The translations under genes and the position numbers were made by a program. Shown piece after piece: positions 25,798-63,213 of a DNA stretch of 64,000 nt. Under the pieces are notes generated by a model, which saw nothing but the letters and a program-made list of their open reading frames with translations, made no database searches and was not told the DNA's origin. The stretch covers positions 50,570,942 to 50,634,941 of the forward strand of contig NC_065542.1 of the NCBI RefSeq assembly GCF_932294415.1, given 5' to 3'. Position 1 is the stretch's first letter. Each line of letters starts with the position of its first letter. The stretch is from Quercus robur (taxonomy: Eukaryota > Streptophyta > Magnoliopsida > Fagales > Fagaceae).

Positions 25798-27821
25798 GGC
25801 CAAAATGGCCAAATACCACCATTTTCAAAAATTTGTAGCAAAAAAATATTGTTTCGGAACTATATAGGGAAATACCACTTTTCTAGAACTGGAGTTCCAA
25901 ATGGTACTCGAGTTTATGAAACTCGAGTTCCTCATCAGTTTTGCCACCGTGGCACTGCTGAGCTAGAAATTGGGCGATTAAAAAAAATAATGTGGTACTC
26001 GAGCTTGGTAAACCCGAGTACCATGCAACACAATACTCAAGTATACCAAGCTCGAGTACCGTGTATGAATAAAATGCTATTTGTTATATTTCTATAGTAC
26101 TCGAGCTCACCAAGCTCGAGTACCTTGTAACTTTTTTTTCTTTTTTTTTGGGATTATCGACAAATAAACATAAACATAAAATGATGTTTATTTTCTTTCT
26201 ACAGTAGTCGAGCTCACCAAGCTTGAGTACCTTGTAACTTTTTTTTTTTTTTTTTGGATTATCGACAAATAAACATAAACATAAAATGTTGTTTATTTTA
26301 TTTCTACAATACTCGAGCTCACTAAGCTCGAGTACCTTGTAACTTTTTTTTTTTTTTGGATTATAGACAAATAAACATAAACATAAACATAAGTAACTTT
26401 TTATGTTTTTATTTATTTAAATAGAAGCATTGTAAAATATAGAGATTTTAATTTCAAAATATGAATTTAATTTCTACATTAAGTAAAACTGTTCACTGTT
26501 TTCTCATAAAAATTATTCACTGCTTTTTGCATAAACTATTTCTAGCATATTGCATAAAATTATTTTTTGTTCAGCATTATTTAAAAAATTGTTCACTCTC
26601 TTTTCCGCGTAAATTATTTTCTGTTCACTATTTAAAAAATTGTTCACTATTTTCTTGTAAAACACCTAGTGAAATCGTGTTTTCTAAATTTAAAAGCCAA
26701 ATCTGAATGCTTTTTCATGTTTAAATTTCACAATGAAAGAATTTGTTTTCCTGCATTGATAAAATCTATTTCTATATTAACAAAATTTGCTCTCTGCACA
26801 TCATGTTTAGTATATATTCGAATCTGCTTACTGCATTCATAAAATCTGTTTTTTGCGTTAATTAAAAATGATTTTATGAATGCAGTAAGCAGATTCAAAT
26901 ATACAGTAAACATGATGTGCAGAGAGCAAATTTTATTAATGTAGAAATAGATTTTATCAATGCAGGAAAACAAATTCTTTCATTGTGAAATTTAAACATG
27001 AAAAAGCATTCAGATTTGGCTTTTAAATTTAGAAAACACGATTTCACTAGGTGTTTTATAAGAAAATAGTGAACAATTTTTTAAATAGTGAACAGAAAAT
27101 AATTTACGCGGAAAAGAGAGTGAACAATTTTTTAAATAATGCTAAACAAAAAATAATTTTATGCAATATGCTAGAAATAATTTATGCAGAAAGCAGTAAA
27201 TAATTTTTATGAGAAAACAATGAACAGTTTTACTTAATGTAGAAATTAAATTCATATTTTGAAATTAAAATCTCTATATTTTACAATGCTTCTATTTAAA
27301 TAAATAAAAACATAAAAAAGCTACTTATTTTTATGTTTATATTTATTTGTCGATAATCCAAAAAAAAAAGTTACAAGGTACTTGAGCTTAATGAGCTCAA
27401 GTACTGTAGAAATAAAATAAACAGCATTTTATGTTTATGTTTATTTGTCGATAATCCCAAAAAAAGAAAAAGTTACAAGGTACTCGAGCTTGGTGAGCTC
27501 GAGTCCTGTAGAAATATAATAAATAGCATTTTATTCATAAACGGTACTCGAGCTTGGTATACTCGAGTATTGTGTTGCATGGTACTCGAGTTTACCAAGC
27601 TTGAGTACCACATTATTTTTTTTTAATCGCCCAATTTCCAACTCAGCAGTGCCATGGTGGCAAAACTGATGAGAAACTCGAGTTTCATAAACTCGAGTAC
27701 CATTTGGGATTCGAGTTTATGAAACTCAAGTTCTAGAAAAGTGGTATTTCCCTATATAGTTCCGAAACAGTGTTTTTTTGCTACAAATTTCTGAAAATGG
27801 TGGTATTTGGCTATTTTGGCC
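25798..27821. mobile_element. Long palindromic (foldback) MULE-like element, 2,024 bp
   Basis: Left arm 25,798-26,845 and right arm 26,871-27,821 are inverted copies around a 25-bp spacer. Both outer ends are GGCC followed by an AAATACCACC word. The 10-bp direct repeat AAGGATCTTT flanks it (25,788-25,797; 27,822-27,831), in the 9-11 bp range of Mutator-type insertions. Arms contain repeated CTCGAG-centred inverted words and ~100-bp units with 'gattatcgacaaataaacat'. No protein is encoded. Transcription across it would give a ~1 kb double-stranded hairpin. Confidence 0.9.
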
Positions 27822-44403: not shown

Positions 44404-45219
44404 ATTTATATTTTTCATAAAATTATTGTAGTTATTTGCAATTCAAGTGATATTGAAGGAATTGAAGATTGTTTGTTTATTGAACGACTAGAAAATAGTG
44501 ATGACAATTTGTTGGATAAGGTGGCATATACTGAAAATGAAGCATACAATTTATACAATAATTATGAATTACGAACAGGTTTTAGTATACGGAAAGGAAA
44601 GCCTGGATATTTTAATGGGACAAAGAATATAAGGTAACGTGAATTTCTATGTTCTAAGGAGGGTTTTAAAATAGATGAAGATCCTTGTGAAGAGGAAAAT
44701 TGGAAGAAACTAGAGACTAGAACTGGCTGTAAAGCATTTATTCGTTTCACAGTTGAAAATGATGTGTGGAGGGTTATTGCATTTAATCCAGAGCATAATC
44801 ATGAACTTGCACTACCATCAGAGAGACATTTGTTAAGATCGGGTTGTCGTATTTCAAAACCTAAGGCAGGTTTAATTGATTCCATGGTGAATGCTGGTAT
44901 AAATACAAAAAATACTTATTTGTATTTAACAGAAGAAGTTAGAGGGAGTGAAAATGTGGGCTTCACTGAAAAAGATTGTTATAACCATGTGAACACAAAA
45001 AAGATGTCAACGATTAATGTTGGAGATGCTCTATTGAATCATTTAAAGAAAAGACAAATAGAAGATCCCATGTTTTTTTACATTGTTCAAGTAGATCAAG
45101 AAAATCGAATAACAAATTATTTTTGGAAAAATAAGAGATCAAGGATTGATTATGATTATTTAAGAAATGTTGTAAACAAGACAATCATTCAAGTAACAAT
45201 ATTAAAGAGACCGAGATAA
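44404..45219 (+). pseudogene. FAR1/FRS-type gene fragment
   Basis: An exon begins after a TTGTAG acceptor (about 44,430). It encodes VAYTENEAYNLYNNYELRTG, FSIRKGKPG, REFLCSKEGF, then GCKAFIRF and WRVIAFNPEHNHELALP, the full FAR1 DNA-binding domain with its C-C-H-H zinc pattern (REFLC, TGCKA, EHNHEL). Past it, DALLNHLKKRQIEDPMFFY and RITNYFWKNKRSRIDYDYL match the linker that precedes the MULE-type DDE core. Homology ends near 45,165, before the DDE residues. A TAA at 44,635-44,637 interrupts the domain between NIR and REF. So it is a truncated pseudogene, independent of the FAR1 relic at 10,315, which is on the other strand. Confidence 0.8.
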
Positions 45220-57330: not shown

Positions 57331-58379
57331 CTTCTTCTCCTCCTAGTTTTTCTTTTTTTTTCTTCTTTGCTTTGCTTTGCTTTTCCTTTGCTTTTGTTTT
57401 TTCAAATCACAGAATGAGAGAGATTGAAGAAGACGATTAATTTAATGGGCCTAAGCACAGTTTACTGGAGGATTCTGGCCCTTTGCCCTTTCTGGGAAAC
57501 ATATTTGGCATAATGCCCCTGTTTCGAAACTATATAGGGGCGTGCCCCTGTTTGTATACTCGATCTCCGTAACGGCGAGTTACTTAAGTAACTCGATTAT
57601 GAAGAAACCGAGTTACGGGCAGGTTCTTGCCACGCTGGTGTTCCAGCTTGGCTTTTGGGCAATAAAATATTCCAGCGTTACTGTTTGGAACTCGTCAATG
57701 CGGAAAACGAGTACGTAAAACCCGAATAACCGATAATCGAGTTATTTGGTTTACTCGGTTATTATATAACCGAGTTTTATGCGATTCTGACGCCATTTCA
57801 CATCAGTTGTACACACGTGAATCAGAACCCGATTAATAGGAAATCGAGTTATTAATACTCGGTTCTTTTATAATCGAGTTCTTCTGCTATATGCAGTTCT
57901 CCTCATCATTTTCAGATATTCTCCTCATTCTTAGAATTTTCGGTCAGGGGCACGCGTTTTCTCTCCTTCATCTCAGGTTTTCCTAACTCATTCTCTTCTT
58001 TGAAATACATTGAGAATTTTATTATTGTGTTGGTAAACATAGTTGTAGATATTATAAAAATTTATCAATCATAATGTATGTTTTTTGTTAGAGTTTAATT
58101 TTCATTTAATAATTTGTATTACTTATGCTGTGGTATTTTCTTGAATGAGGGTTATGTGTATTTTCTTGAATGGTATTTTAGAGGTATATTAGTTGTTTGG
58201 TGTTGTTTGATGTTACAAGAAACGTACGAGGATCAATAGAAATGGTGATAAATGTTATGTGTGTACATTGGGTTATATTGCGTGTTATGTGTGTAATGGT
58301 TATGGTAAAATTTGAGTGTTAGTATTTAATTTTTAGCATGTAATAGTACACAAATTGATGAATGTCTTTGTCATGTACC

Positions 58380-59194: not shown

Positions 59195-59286
59195 GTCATG
59201 TACCATCTTATGCAGCATTACATTATTTACCAACAATTGATGCACACTATTAACTTGATCAGTTGATGTTATTGTATTCAGTGTCA

Positions 59287-59736
59287 ATGTCTGGTTCTGG
59301 CAACCCACAACTCTATAGGCCTCACGATGTGTTCACTGCTATGGGTCGTTGCTGGGTATTGGAAGATGAGTTTAGCTATCCAATCAATCCAAATCTGCGA
59401 AATAGTGCTTATGTTCACAATACCATGAGACAGGAGTGAGATTGGTTATTTTGTGAACAACAAATGTTTTATGATGAGTTGACTGGTTTTAAGTTGCCAG
59501 TGCCTCGGCGACTCGCATCACAGATGCCTAGAGACACGATTGACGAACTTCGTAAAGCATTGAACCGCATAAGAGAAGAAAATAATCGAATGAAGATACG
59601 TCTTAATCGATATCGGACCCAAGTCGAGATTCGAGAGTCAGTGGAGGGAGGGTGGTACGAGCACGCACAATTCATGCAATCACTTCTTGCTGATCCCATT
59701 TATCAGTCAGACGTGGAGATGTCAGATGAAGACTAA
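59287..59736 (+). pseudogene. Coiled-coil accessory protein, copy 1 (one in-frame TGA)
   Basis: The frame from ATG 59,287 gives 149 codons: MSGSGNPQLYRPHDVFTAMG at the start, LPVPRRLASQMPRD at 70-83, a coiled coil with IREENNRMKIRLNRYR at 95-110, and an acidic end DVEMSDED. Codon 51 (59,437-59,439) is TGA in QE.DWLF; the aligned place in copy 2 (REWDF) is Trp, so TGG to TGA is likely. The ATG follows a TTCAG acceptor, and an upstream leader near 57,900-57,975 ends with a CTCAG|GT donor, so a 5' untranslated intron is plausible. Role unknown; similarity to copies 2 and 3 and the terminal module next to it suggest a transposon accessory protein. Confidence 0.6.
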
Positions 59737-60094
59737 TCGTGTCGTGGTGTAATTAGACTTTGTTATTTAACTATTTTTGTTAACTATGTTTTAAATGTAT
59801 GTGGGTCACTGTTGTTGCATTTGTACTATGTAAACCTTATTATTGATTGTGAGGACCATGCACATTATTCGTAATCTACTTTATTCCCACAGAACGCATA
59901 AAAGTCAAATATTCCCACACATGATTGATGTTTTTCAATAAGCACCTAGAACATAACAATAAGCACGTACAACATAACACAGAAAACTTAAAGTAACTTA
60001 CGATGTCACCAATATGCATGCATTGCATATCGAACACTAATGCTACTAACATTATTGACTTAACCTAGACATAACACACATACCACATAGGCAT

Positions 60095-60475
60095 TCACTC
60101 TGACAGGTAGTCCTCGTAGTTGAGGACATTGTTACGTTCCGTCAGAGTGAGTTGCCGGTTCGTGGCGGCGGCCAGCTCTTCCGCTAGCTGTAGCATGTGA
60201 TACCTGGACCTACGCAGTATCATCAGATTATTCTCTTTTTTTATTTTTGTCACTGCACGCTCATATTGATGCATATTTTGTCGTGATAGTGTGAGTGAGA
60301 CACGATCAACAAGAGGCGCTCCAATTCGCACGAGATCATCGTGCAAAGCGTTGGACTCGTTCACACGAAAGTCCCACTCCCGCTGCAGTCCGGCATAGTA
60401 TTCCCTCTCGTCGGAATCTCTCTCCCTTCTATAGTTATCTGGAAAACGAGGTAGCATCCAATTGCGCATTGACAT
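60095..60475 (-). CDS. Coiled-coil accessory protein, copy 2
   Basis: 126 residues from ATG 60,475: MSMRNWMLPRFPDNYRRERD, then LQREWDF, and a helix with TKIKKENNLMILRRSRYHML at 76-95, then an Ala-rich stretch and an acidic end NYEDYLSE. It aligns with copies 1 and 3 through the order 'aromatic/basic head - E-rich block - ENNxM..RxxR - acidic tail'. Uninterrupted frame. A TATA box (TATATAAA on the minus strand) 69-76 bp upstream of the ATG fits transcription from here, and it is duplicated. No known enzyme motif. Function unknown. Confidence 0.6.
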   Translation of the reverse strand: MSMRNWMLPRFPDNYRRERDSDEREYYAGLQREWDFRVNESNALHDDLVRIGAPLVDRVSLTLSRQNMHQYERAVTKIKKENNLMILRRSRYHMLQLAEELAAATNRQLTLTERNNVLNYEDYLSE

Positions 60476-60510
60476 TGGAAAATGTGACTTATGATCGGTA
60501 TCTGTAGATG

Positions 60511-60610
60511 TTTTGCAAGGGTAGATGTAAATGGGAGTGGGACTTTATATAGGAGTTTTGCAAGGGTAGATGTAAATGGGACTAGGACTTTATATAGGAG
60601 TTTTGCAAGG
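60511..60610 (-). promoter_or_regulatory. Duplicated TATA core promoter of the copy-2 gene
   Basis: A 45-bp unit ending TTTATATAGGAG occurs at 60,511-60,555 and 60,556-60,600, with a partial third copy after 60,601. Each full unit holds a minus-strand TATATAAA (60,544-60,551; 60,589-60,596). Confidence 0.65.
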
Positions 60611-60856
60611 GTAAATATTCACGTGGATGTGATTATATGTAAGGGTAAGTATTCACGTGAATAAAGATGATATGTCTCGACATTGTATTGTTTAGTGAGG
60701 TGTTGAGGAGCACATACTAACTGCGAACATGACTTGGCTATATAGTGGCACCTGTTGGTGCACGTGGTTCGCTGAGGCAACTGTTTGATATGGATATAGC
60801 TTATGCTACAGTAGAAGGCAGGTGATGTGTACTGCAAAGGAGGTTGTGTGTTTATT

Positions 60857-61220
60857 CACGTGAAGACTATTCAGCATTCCTATGCTTCATCTGACATGAC
60901 TTGATGAGACAGTGCTGAGTTGCATTAAATGTTTCATAAACTTTTCAAGGATGCTCTGCATCATTGAAAACGGTGCATTGCAAAAATCTGCATATTTGTG
61001 TATTGACGAGCGTGTAGGTGATATGACTAGATAGGGTTCACATGAAGACTATTCAGCATTCCTGTGCCTCGTCTGACATGACTTGACGAGACAATGCCGA
61101 GCTTTGTTAAATGTATCATAAACTTTTCAGGAATGCTCTGCATCCTTGAAAACGGTGCATTGCGAAAGGATGCATATCTGTGTGCGCATGTGCGTGTAAG
61201 TGATATGACTGTATAGGGTT
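60857..61220. repeat. Tandem duplication, ~182-bp unit
   Basis: Two diverged units (about 60,857-61,038 and 61,039-61,220) share 'gaagactattcagcattcc', 'gatgctctgcat'-like and 'gaaaacggtgcattgc' phrases. No coding sense. Confidence 0.75.
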
Positions 61221-61401
61221 CAACAATGTGACGCACTGTTGAGCAGCACATGCAGCACTGCAAAGTGTATAAGTAGAAATGGTGGACAGCTCACCCCCAA
61301 AATCAATGCATAAACTTTGAAGGGATGCTCTGTATTTTCACGTGAGTGTGGATGGGTACTTGTGGTCAGGGTTCAACAGTGCTAAGCTATCCATGGTAGC
61401 T

Positions 61402-61641
61402 ACACTCATTGTTCCCTATGGTGGTATTGGCAAGTGGGATTGAATCCCTGTTGATAACAACATTTGGTTTTGTAATGGTTGGCAGGATTTCGTTGAATAC
61501 CATTCTATCTGTTATGTTTATTTTCTAGTTTTCAGATGTGAAGGAAAATCAAGTTTCCATGTTCTTATATTTGATAAGACTACCACTGATATTCAATATC
61601 CACCCAATAACAACTGTAAATTGGAAGATCATCAGCTATAA
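61402..61641 (+). pseudogene. B3 DNA-binding domain fragment (REM-like)
   Basis: Plus strand encodes VATLIVPYGGIGKWD, then after a TGA (61,441-61,443) IPVDNNIWFCNGWQDFVEYH, SICYVYFLVFRCEGKSSFHV and LIFDKTTTDIQYP. The order 'W-NGW-FV-HS-...-FLVF...FHV-IFD' is the core of a plant B3 domain of the REM group of transcription factors. The domain is partial and interrupted. At about 61,985-62,060, NKSKLGDECYVVNI resembles the end of a B3 domain and may be a remnant of a second one. Either a captured gene fragment inside the transposon or a host relic. Confidence 0.6.
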
Positions 61642-62598
61642 ATAATAGACTTATATGAAGATGATAGAAACATATCCCTTAGCTGATTTGCCCATAAAAC
61701 ATGAAGCCAGACAAAAGTTTGTTACGAAAGTAACAAAAAACTTTCTTCTACATAAAGAGGAAGACAGAATGAGTGGTTGGCCTGATTTGGATGAGTCTGT
61801 ATGTAATGTATTTATATAAAGTAGGACAGTTGTAGAACTAAGATACACGGATTCGGGTATATGATACAGCAACTGATGGTGTCATATATATGAATTATTT
61901 GTATTATTGAATCATATGTGTGGTTAGTATGTGTGGTTTGGATGAGTCTGTATGTATTGGATCTATTAAATTTTTCTACAAGTAATGTGCAATAAATCTA
62001 AGTTGGGTGATGAGTGTTATGTGGTTAACATTTCAATTTACACAGAGAGAATATTGGAAACATCAACATTTCTAAGCAGAGGACATTTTCCAACCAAAGC
62101 ACAAGAATCATATGTAGCAACAAAGAACAACAGGGAAAGAATGAATTACCAGCCTACTACACTTAGCTAATCCATTGAAAACATTGCAACATACTGACAT
62201 AACAATTTAATATAGTACCAGTTTCACGGAATGCATGTTGGAAGGGAGTATTATCTTGAACAAAGGTGTGTTTTTACACCTCACCGGTGATGGTCTCAAT
62301 TGGGCCCTACTCTACTTCGGCGAGTCCTTGCTTTAGGAACCATATGGTTTTTGTGTGAAAGAGTGGTTGGTGTGTGTGGTTTGGAAGAGTCTGTATTGTA
62401 GAATGTATGAAATTTTCAGTTTAAATTTTCATATGTAGCCACAAAGAACAGCAGGTAAAAAATGATAAACTGATTTCATTTAAACTTAGCGAAAACTAAT
62501 GAATAGCTTCTCTTTAGTAATGCAAAAGTTGAACGTACATAATCATCATTTGTCAGACGTTAAGAACAACATTTTGTAGTGCACAGAATGTGTAGACA
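61642..62598. other. No intact gene seen
   Basis: AT-rich; contains possible B3 tail at 61,985-62,060 and otherwise nothing I can assign. Confidence 0.45.
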
Positions 62599-63213
62599 TT
62601 AACAACAACGTCTAATGTTCGTAGGTAGAAATTTCTGGAAGTCATCATTGCTTGAATCTGAGAAGTCTGAAATATCTCTTTCATCATCTAACGCAGTAAT
62701 TTCATTAATAGACTTCATGGCTCGCTCTTGCGCCTTCCCCTTTAGATGCTTCCTAGCTTTTTGGATCGCGTGAAAACGGTCTAGTCGCCTTTGCATTTGA
62801 TTGTTCTCTTGTTCAAGACGCGCAAGTATGTTGGCAGGTTCATCTCTAGGTAACTCGGCTGAGCGTGCCTTAGGAACTCGTAACCCGTGCCATCGACAAT
62901 ACACCTCCAACTCACACCTCTTCTCGTATAGGGTTGACCATGGTGGTTCTGCTACGGTGAACTCTATTGCGGTTGTATCTGTACTTAGTTTTGTGGGTTT
63001 GCCGACCATGATGTGTCCGACGCTTCCAAGACCCTCGTACGTGTATATTGGCATATTAATGAAATCTCTCTTCTTTCCGACCCATTTCCCTCCATAGTGG
63101 TCTGTGTATGTCTGTAGTTGTTGATCTGCTGGAGCTTCTGATGATCCATATGTTGAAGTAGATCCAAACTTGTTTCGCATTTTACGCTTTGACATTGAGA
63201 CGCTGCGACTCAT
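62599..63213 (-). CDS. Coiled-coil accessory protein, copy 3
   Basis: 204 residues from ATG 63,213: a basic head (SMSKRKMRNKFGSTSTYGSS), a middle part with KRDFINMPIYTYEGLGSVG, then LYEKRCELEVYCRWHGLRVP at 95-114, a coiled coil ARLEQENNQMQRRLDRFHAI at 131-150, and an acidic tail DISDFSDSSNDD. LRVPKA...LPRDEP...ENNQMQRRLDR lines up with copy 1's LPVPRR...MPRDTI...ENNRMKIRLNR. Uninterrupted frame. A TATA box (TTATAAATG on the minus strand, 63,270-63,277) lies ~58 bp upstream. The basic head could bind nucleic acid and the coiled coil could pair proteins, but that is inference. Function unknown. Confidence 0.6.
   Translation of the reverse strand: MSRSVSMSKRKMRNKFGSTSTYGSSEAPADQQLQTYTDHYGGKWVGKKRDFINMPIYTYEGLGSVGHIMVGKPTKLSTDTTAIEFTVAEPPWSTLYEKRCELEVYCRWHGLRVPKARSAELPRDEPANILARLEQENNQMQRRLDRFHAIQKARKHLKGKAQERAMKSINEITALDDERDISDFSDSSNDDFQKFLPTNIRRCC

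Follow-up and report, generated by a model that had tools for sequence, protein, structure and literature searches.

Three small genes of a giant Mutator-like element in Quercus robur: accessory genes with a possible regulatory role

Mutator-like elements (MULEs), MULEs that carry a plant mobile domain (PMD) gene and MULE accessory open reading frames (ORFs) are known, and as described these elements are small and hold few genes. For the plant MULE groups for which Table 1 of PMC6446971 states a number, it is one or two ORFs, with Hiun carrying vanB and vanC as additional ORFs, and arthropod MULEs span 1.4-10.0 kb (PMC13359780). Here we describe three small genes, c1, c2 and c3, in a 64,000-nucleotide stretch of the Quercus robur genome (C38:50570942-50634941, hereafter the window), which almost certainly belong to a giant, seemingly autonomous Mutator-like element as accessory genes of its own. 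Two lineages of the element were observed in this genome, one of about 40-42 kb to which the window's copy belongs and a sister lineage of about 32 kb, represented below by the C4 copy. All copy counts refer to the genome of Quercus robur alone (785.7 Mb in 42 contigs).

MULEs of the MuDR/MUDRAVI type that carry PMD (groups 46-50 in PMC6446971) resemble the giant element in a MuDR-type transposase with a SWIM finger, long terminal repeats, a target duplication of 9-10 bp and the PMD gene itself. They differ in having one or two ORFs, against eight gene types within 32 kb in the C4 element, and in the orientation of PMD, which lies on the transposase strand in C4 and antisense in many members of these groups (Table 1 of the same source). 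VANDAL21 (Hiun), with a transposase, vanB and the anti-silencing vanC (PMC5735166, PMC6446971), likewise combines a Mutator-like transposase with accessory genes and has a short motif clustered in non-coding DNA. In contrast to VANDAL21, the giant element encodes three small proteins of 126-204 amino acids that do not match DUF1985/DUF287 above the cut-off, as members of the VANC family would, possesses long inverted repeats and is known here from sequence alone.

The mudrB gene of MuDR (PMC6446971; compared by description) is similar in accompanying the transposase gene of an autonomous Mutator element, as its second gene, and in having a non-catalytic role, but it is a single gene, whereas the giant element has three. 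Pack-MULEs (PMC6431247) share Mutator-type ends that carry other genes. They lack a transposase, and none of those of Jiang et al. 2004 exceeds 7 kb according to that review; the giant element is set apart from them by its transposase, a length of 32-40 kb and c1-c3 genes kept by selection. Transposase_32, described as a relative of Athila retrotransposon ORF1 (PMC11728184), and PMD, found in Gypsy elements as well as in host genes and some MULEs (PMC5418596), are both represented in the giant element. According to these two sources, the families otherwise occur in long terminal repeat (LTR) retrotransposons (PMD also in host genes and some MULEs), whereas here they lie within one DNA transposon. 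The open-licence literature, searched partly for this point, yielded neither a 30-40-kb plant MULE nor the c1-c3 families, which Repbase or subscription papers may describe.

Conservation, order and exchange of c1, c2 and c3

The three genes in the window are as follows.

59287-59736, plus strand: c1, 149 codons with one in-frame TGA in the window copy; zipper-like heptad and acidic tail
60095-60475, minus strand: c2, 126 amino acids, open; tail to tail with c1
62599-63213, minus strand: c3, 204 amino acids, open; N-terminal part of its own, ENN heptad, acidic tail, TATAAA at -63

Three frames had been predicted here, two of them uninterrupted, and both points hold. Chance is excluded by the number of matches in the genome: at least 151 for c3 (344 candidates, 150 scored), at least 150 for c2 (371 candidates) and at least 151 for c1 (402 candidates), located on about 12 large contigs. 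Both c2 and c3 are open in the window, and c1 is intact in other genomic copies, unlike the window copy with its TGA; among the 30 best c3 places, 26 lack an internal stop. The TATA boxes proposed in front of two of the genes fared less evenly. Ahead of c3, TATAAA is found at -63 to -65 in all five copies compared, while TATATAA precedes c2 in just two of five copies (TATATAT in a third), and no TATA box was found ahead of c1 in the three copies compared. The bases directly ahead of the c1 start (59269-59281; TTATTGTATTCAG) resemble a 3' splice site, such that an upstream c1 exon may exist nearer the terminal repeat.

The original prediction also regarded the frames as selected rather than random, and named the ratio of non-synonymous to synonymous substitution rates (dN/dS) as a check. 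A comparison of the window's element with the C4 copy gave ratios of 0.15 for c1, 0.11 for c2 and 0.30 for c3 (Fisher p of 7e-6, 4e-12 and 2e-3, respectively), with 14/22, 27/45 and 17/31 of the changes at third codon positions; other copy pairs, older and decayed copies included, gave values from 0.07 to 0.58. All three genes are under purifying selection.

The genes recur as a unit. Using the best 150 places per gene, c2 is found at most 10 kb away from c3 in 110 of the 150 c3 places and c1 in 105 of them, and c1 lies equally close to c2 in 132 of the 150 c2 places. The exact order c3+ c2+ c1- is present in 88 of the 199 clusters built from these places; seven have the order c2+ c1- c3+, in more compact and diverged copies. 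In such copies the three genes are packed into about 2.4 kb, e.g., at C39:15486231-15488491 (L042), and another diverged cluster, of the order c2+ c1- c1- c3+, contains a tandem c1 pair (L046 912-1349 and 1713-2144). A search with the transposase, for which the best 52 of 1,717 candidates were scored, showed that, up to 50 kb downstream of it, c3 is present on the transposase strand in 50/52 places, c1 on the opposite strand in 48/52, and both in 47/52 (c1 counted among the matches listed), where chance would give about 0.005 per place. The family had been predicted to be transposon-borne, and within the Quercus robur genome c1-c3 indeed adjoin matching termini and MULE transposases. A reading as host genes was rejected on the grounds that all three families are multicopy and linked to the termini and the transposase.

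Could the three genes be passengers, i.e., host genes or fragments captured in Pack-MULE style and without a role for the element? MULEs are known to capture host sequence, and the window's element contains a WRKY fragment and the C4 element B3 domains. Passengers would be expected to decay, yet dN/dS of c1-c3 between the lineages is 0.11-0.30, and this value, the constant gene order seen in 88 of 199 clusters and the linkage to the transposase together make capture very improbable (a host source gene was looked for within the best 150 places per gene).

A second explanation, and the main rival of a regulatory role, is that c1-c3 are transposition cofactors: they would gather with the transposase at the terminal repeats, and cutting or integration across 32-40 kb would depend on them, as thought for mudrB in MuDR. 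It agrees with the purifying selection, with the joint position of c3 and c1 downstream of the transposase (47/52 places) and with the position of c1 as the gene closest to the terminal repeat; moreover, a very long element might need bridging proteins, and extra MULE ORFs with such roles have been reviewed (PMC6446971). The comparison of the two lineages speaks against it. An alignment of 30 c3 loci, each of 3.6 kb, separates the copies into two or more lineages, between which identity in 150-base blocks is 88-98% inside c3 and 0-84% outside. Synonymous divergence (dS) between the lineages is 0.12 for c3, 0.17 for c1 and 0.50 for c2, compared to 0.68-1.90 for the PMD, RNase H1 N-terminal-domain (RNase H1-N), transposase and Transposase_32 genes.

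The simplest reading, which we infer from these values, is that the c1-c3 end was swapped between lineages by recombination or conversion after the lineages had split, and for c1 and c3 this exchange seems to have followed the divergence of the transposases. Divergence of c1 and c3 is low between lineages with transposases that are unlike in a third of their residues (dS 1.18) and with strongly different end sequences, making a tight fit to one transposase or one end sequence unlikely. As a function bound to one transposase would render exchange of the module harder, the low dS of c1-c3 next to the high dS of the other genes suggests that their job is not tied to a particular transposase, and we consider a cofactor role rather unlikely.

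Ends, length and gene content of the element

57468-57712, plus strand: left terminal inverted repeat; 57477-57712 aligns with the reverse complement of the right end (94.5% over 236 bp)

The window's element extends from 57,468 to 97,702 (40,235 bp) and was traced rightward past the window through L031, L034, L053 and L065. The window contains just its first 6.5 kb; the PMD gene and further genes lie past the right edge. The outer 9 bases of the left end and the direct repeat CAGTTTACTG were read from the flanking sequence of the 40,235-bp element, which has the long terminal inverted repeats of a MULE. No right end was found before 94,000 (alignment score of 29 against a shuffle maximum of 46), and it was located at 97,702 through a genome search for termini. 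With the window's terminal repeat as query, 40 of 478 candidates were scored, and 39 of these 40 form 20 facing pairs (one terminus in two pairs) that are 10.8 to 78.2 kb apart. Six of the pairs measure 40.2-42.0 kb, and pairs of other lengths would be accounted for by deletions and nested insertions. At window-extended position 83593 (L034 9593, plus strand), near the PMD gene inside the giant element, a terminal-repeat-like start faces right, and this is possibly a nested element.

A MULE-type terminus had been recognized in the original prediction from the motif TGTTTCGRAACTATATAGGG, which occurs three times in the window where shuffles give 0.04. The motif does lie inside a MULE terminal repeat, but it is not itself the element end, since the true end is 52 bp further out. 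The sequence GGCC was likewise rejected as the boundary: the repeats flanking it are inverted, and a shift of 9 bases outward gives direct repeats in the copies examined.

For the window's lineage, a 10-bp direct repeat is present at both ends in all six copies examined, in one of them offset by one base at the right end. The C4 copy of the sister lineage (L052+L041+L032+L033, read over 40 kb) is 31,686 bp in length, with the ends GGAGAAAATGGGC.../...GCCCATTTTGGCC and the flanking direct repeat TAGACATAGA. Six more sister-lineage copies likewise have their two ends and a direct repeat, which measures 9 bp in the C3 copy and 10 bp in the other five. They bring this lineage to 7/7 copies with both ends and a target repeat (10 bp in six, 9 bp in one), and by their coordinates these elements are 31.6-32.3 kb long. 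Overall, a target site duplication within the 8-11 bp of MULEs was found in 13/13 copies examined (10 bp in 12, 9 bp in one). Over the 14.7 kb compared, the C4 copy has 99.3% identity to the C2 copy.

Both lineages share the order PMD, RNase H1-N, MuDR transposase, (B3), Transposase_32, c3, c2, c1 and terminal repeat. In the C4 element these are a PMD gene in two pieces (PF10536, E 1e-51 and 1e-19), an RNase H1-N gene on the opposite strand (PF01693), the transposase, two B3 stretches (PF02362, E 7e-17 and 6e-13), a Transposase_32 gene (PF20167, E 1e-24) and c3, c2 and c1. The C4 transposase is intact (881 amino acids) and contains the MULE, DBD_Tnp_Mut and SWIM domains, identifying it as a MULE transposase by Pfam (PF10551, E 1.5e-19; PF03108, 1.2e-10; PF04434, 1.4e-7). 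The Pfam families in the elements as a whole are MULE, DBD_Tnp_Mut, SWIM, PMD, Cauli_VI, B3 and Transposase_32. The window's element has the gene order of C4, with the transposase and the Transposase_32 gene each broken over more than one frame; stop-free transposases of its lineage, about 68% identical to the C4 protein, are found in four other places. Near its far end lies a WRKY fragment (PF03106, E 1.5e-9; window-extended 95326-95778, L065 1326-1778), probably a captured piece of a host gene. A second Transposase_32 gene (L033 7850-8722, E 2e-19), 2.6 kb beyond the end of the C4 element, probably belongs to another element.

Further features of the window are listed below.

25798-27821, no strand assigned: separate 2,024-bp element with the same kind of terminal repeat (GGCCAAAATGG...), flanked on either side by the direct repeat AAGGATCTTT
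60510-60613, no strand assigned: 45-bp tandem repeat, 2.3 units, containing the TATATAA boxes ahead of c2
60855-61222, no strand assigned: 182-bp tandem repeat, 2 units, within the spacer between c2 and c3
61444-61638, plus strand: candidate B3 remnant between c2 and c3, weak (PF02362, E 0.0013, 19.1 bits, under the family cut-off of 30.1)

The 2,024-bp element, in which no transposase frame was seen, is probably a non-autonomous relative. It has internal repeats rich in CTCGAG, with 15 occurrences of this sequence inside it and two in the rest of window positions 1-57467. A stretch at 44638-45216 encodes a FAR1 DNA-binding domain (PF03101, E 1.2e-13) and represents either a piece of a host FAR1 gene or another MULE.

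Relatedness of the proteins, the clustered motif and a possible role

The three peptides had been predicted to be related to each other. Profile-profile comparison makes homology firm for c1 and c2 (probability 96%, E 1.3e-9) and likely for c1 and c3 (54%, E 1.3e-4); the grouping of c2 with c3 is weak (5%, E 0.007). The c1/c2 alignment has 25-26% identity and 23 invariant columns in eight rows (three of c1, five of c2), including EW, ENN-M and R--RY. Column-shuffled profiles reached the score in 0/100 cases for each of the three pairs, with profiles of low diversity (effective number of sequences, Neff, about 1.6), but column shuffling breaks the heptad periodicity too, so that a merely shared coiled coil is still compatible with the profile scores.

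It is conceivable that c3 is unrelated to c1 and c2, with the ENN heptad a common coiled-coil solution and c1-c2 the only duplicated pair. The modest probabilities with c1 and especially c2, an N-terminal part without counterpart, a heptad in c3 that is not significant, and the low Neff and heptad-breaking control just mentioned all fit such an independent origin. Against these stand the E-value of 1.3e-4 for c1-c3, an aligned stretch that takes in the L-x-VP ... PRD segment besides the heptad, and a tblastn match of c1 to one c3 copy (L017, E 1.5e-5, with a small database and composition correction off). We regard a separate origin of c3 as possible but somewhat doubtful.

The original prediction also envisaged that the proteins may pair among themselves or with a transposase. 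Whether they carry a zipper register was assessed by setting the first asparagine of ENN as a core position and scoring the other eight core positions against 10,000 shuffles. In c1 all eight are hydrophobic, and 1 of 10,000 shuffles was as good. Parallel dimeric zippers are marked by a buried asparagine, so that pairing is plausible for c1 and a guess for c2 and c3.

A second feature with a bearing on function is the CG-containing 8-mer AACTCGAT, of which the 31,686-bp C4 element contains 30 copies, compared to a mean of 1.1 and a maximum of 3 in second-order Markov simulation. None of the 30 lies in coding parts. They form five clusters, situated near both ends, in the gap between RNase H1-N and the transposase, before the B3 stretches and before Transposase_32. 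The window's element has 20 sites, none of them in the coding parts listed, and no site lies elsewhere in the 101-kb stretch. The first cluster is within the window:

57590-57880, no strand assigned: first AACTCGAT/ATCGAGTT cluster, 4 of the 20 sites, one inside the terminal repeat and three directly behind it

In VANDAL elements, VANC proteins recognize short motifs repeated in the non-coding sequence and strip it of methylation (PMC5735166), and an anti-silencing service has been suggested for captured PMD proteins (PMC5418596). By analogy, c1-c3, while outside the VANC family by Pfam, may be VANC-like in their working. We tentatively propose that they have an anti-silencing or regulatory role for the element; identity and role taken together, with the greater weight on the identity, appear reasonably probable. 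In such a model c1 and c2, probably with c3, would assemble into small coiled-coil complexes that would target the chromatin or transcription of the element itself, either to oppose silencing by the host or to activate element genes. The motif AACTCGAT is a likely candidate for the landing site of an element-encoded DNA-binding protein, which might be the DNA-binding domain of the transposase, the B3 protein or a complex with c1-c3.

Several results weigh against this proposal, or against parts of it. Homology of c2 and c3 is unproven, and in the heptad test c2 (6/8) and c3 (5/8) were not significant, with 1,565 and 699 of 10,000 shuffles as good. In line with the original prediction that no named accessory gene corresponds to them, c1 (searched in two pieces), c2 and c3 match no Pfam family above the cut-off, and the best hits in a search of solved structures (E 0.11 and 0.12) were taken as chance; neither search revealed a DNA-binding or chromatin domain. 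The 8-kb flanks of the C4 element contain one further copy of AACTCGAT. The clusters of this motif are not directly ahead of c2 and c3 in C4, where ATTCACGTG-type motifs are present instead, and AACTCGAT may be a site for the transposase or B3 without connection to c1-c3. Lastly, 33 of the 199 clusters from the best 150 places per gene consist of c3 only, 13 of c1 and eight of c2, which may reflect decay or the restriction to these places.

Among the Pfam results, matches of c1-c3 to NLBH, NDUF_B5 and SOGA were below the cut-off and are read as coiled-coil or chance similarity, and no bZIP match was obtained up to E 1. Viral contigs were searched with the c3 alignment as well; they contained 79 pattern stretches, none of which encodes a relative.

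In its widest form, the proposal would be that of a class of recently active plant DNA transposons of 32-40 kb with their own regulation kit, in which an exchangeable three-protein coiled-coil module and a CG-containing motif situated ahead of element genes hold off silencing, alongside PMD and Athila-ORF1-like genes; as a whole we consider this unlikely. A 32-40-kb MULE whose transposase is intact and whose copies are nearly identical would show that plant cut-and-paste transposons are able to move whole multi-gene sets. That c1-c3 are kept by selection and seem to have been swapped between lineages brings an old question within reach of testing, namely what the accessory proteins of transposons do against host silencing and whether they act as a module, and the clustered AACTCGAT motif offers a concrete target for binding tests.

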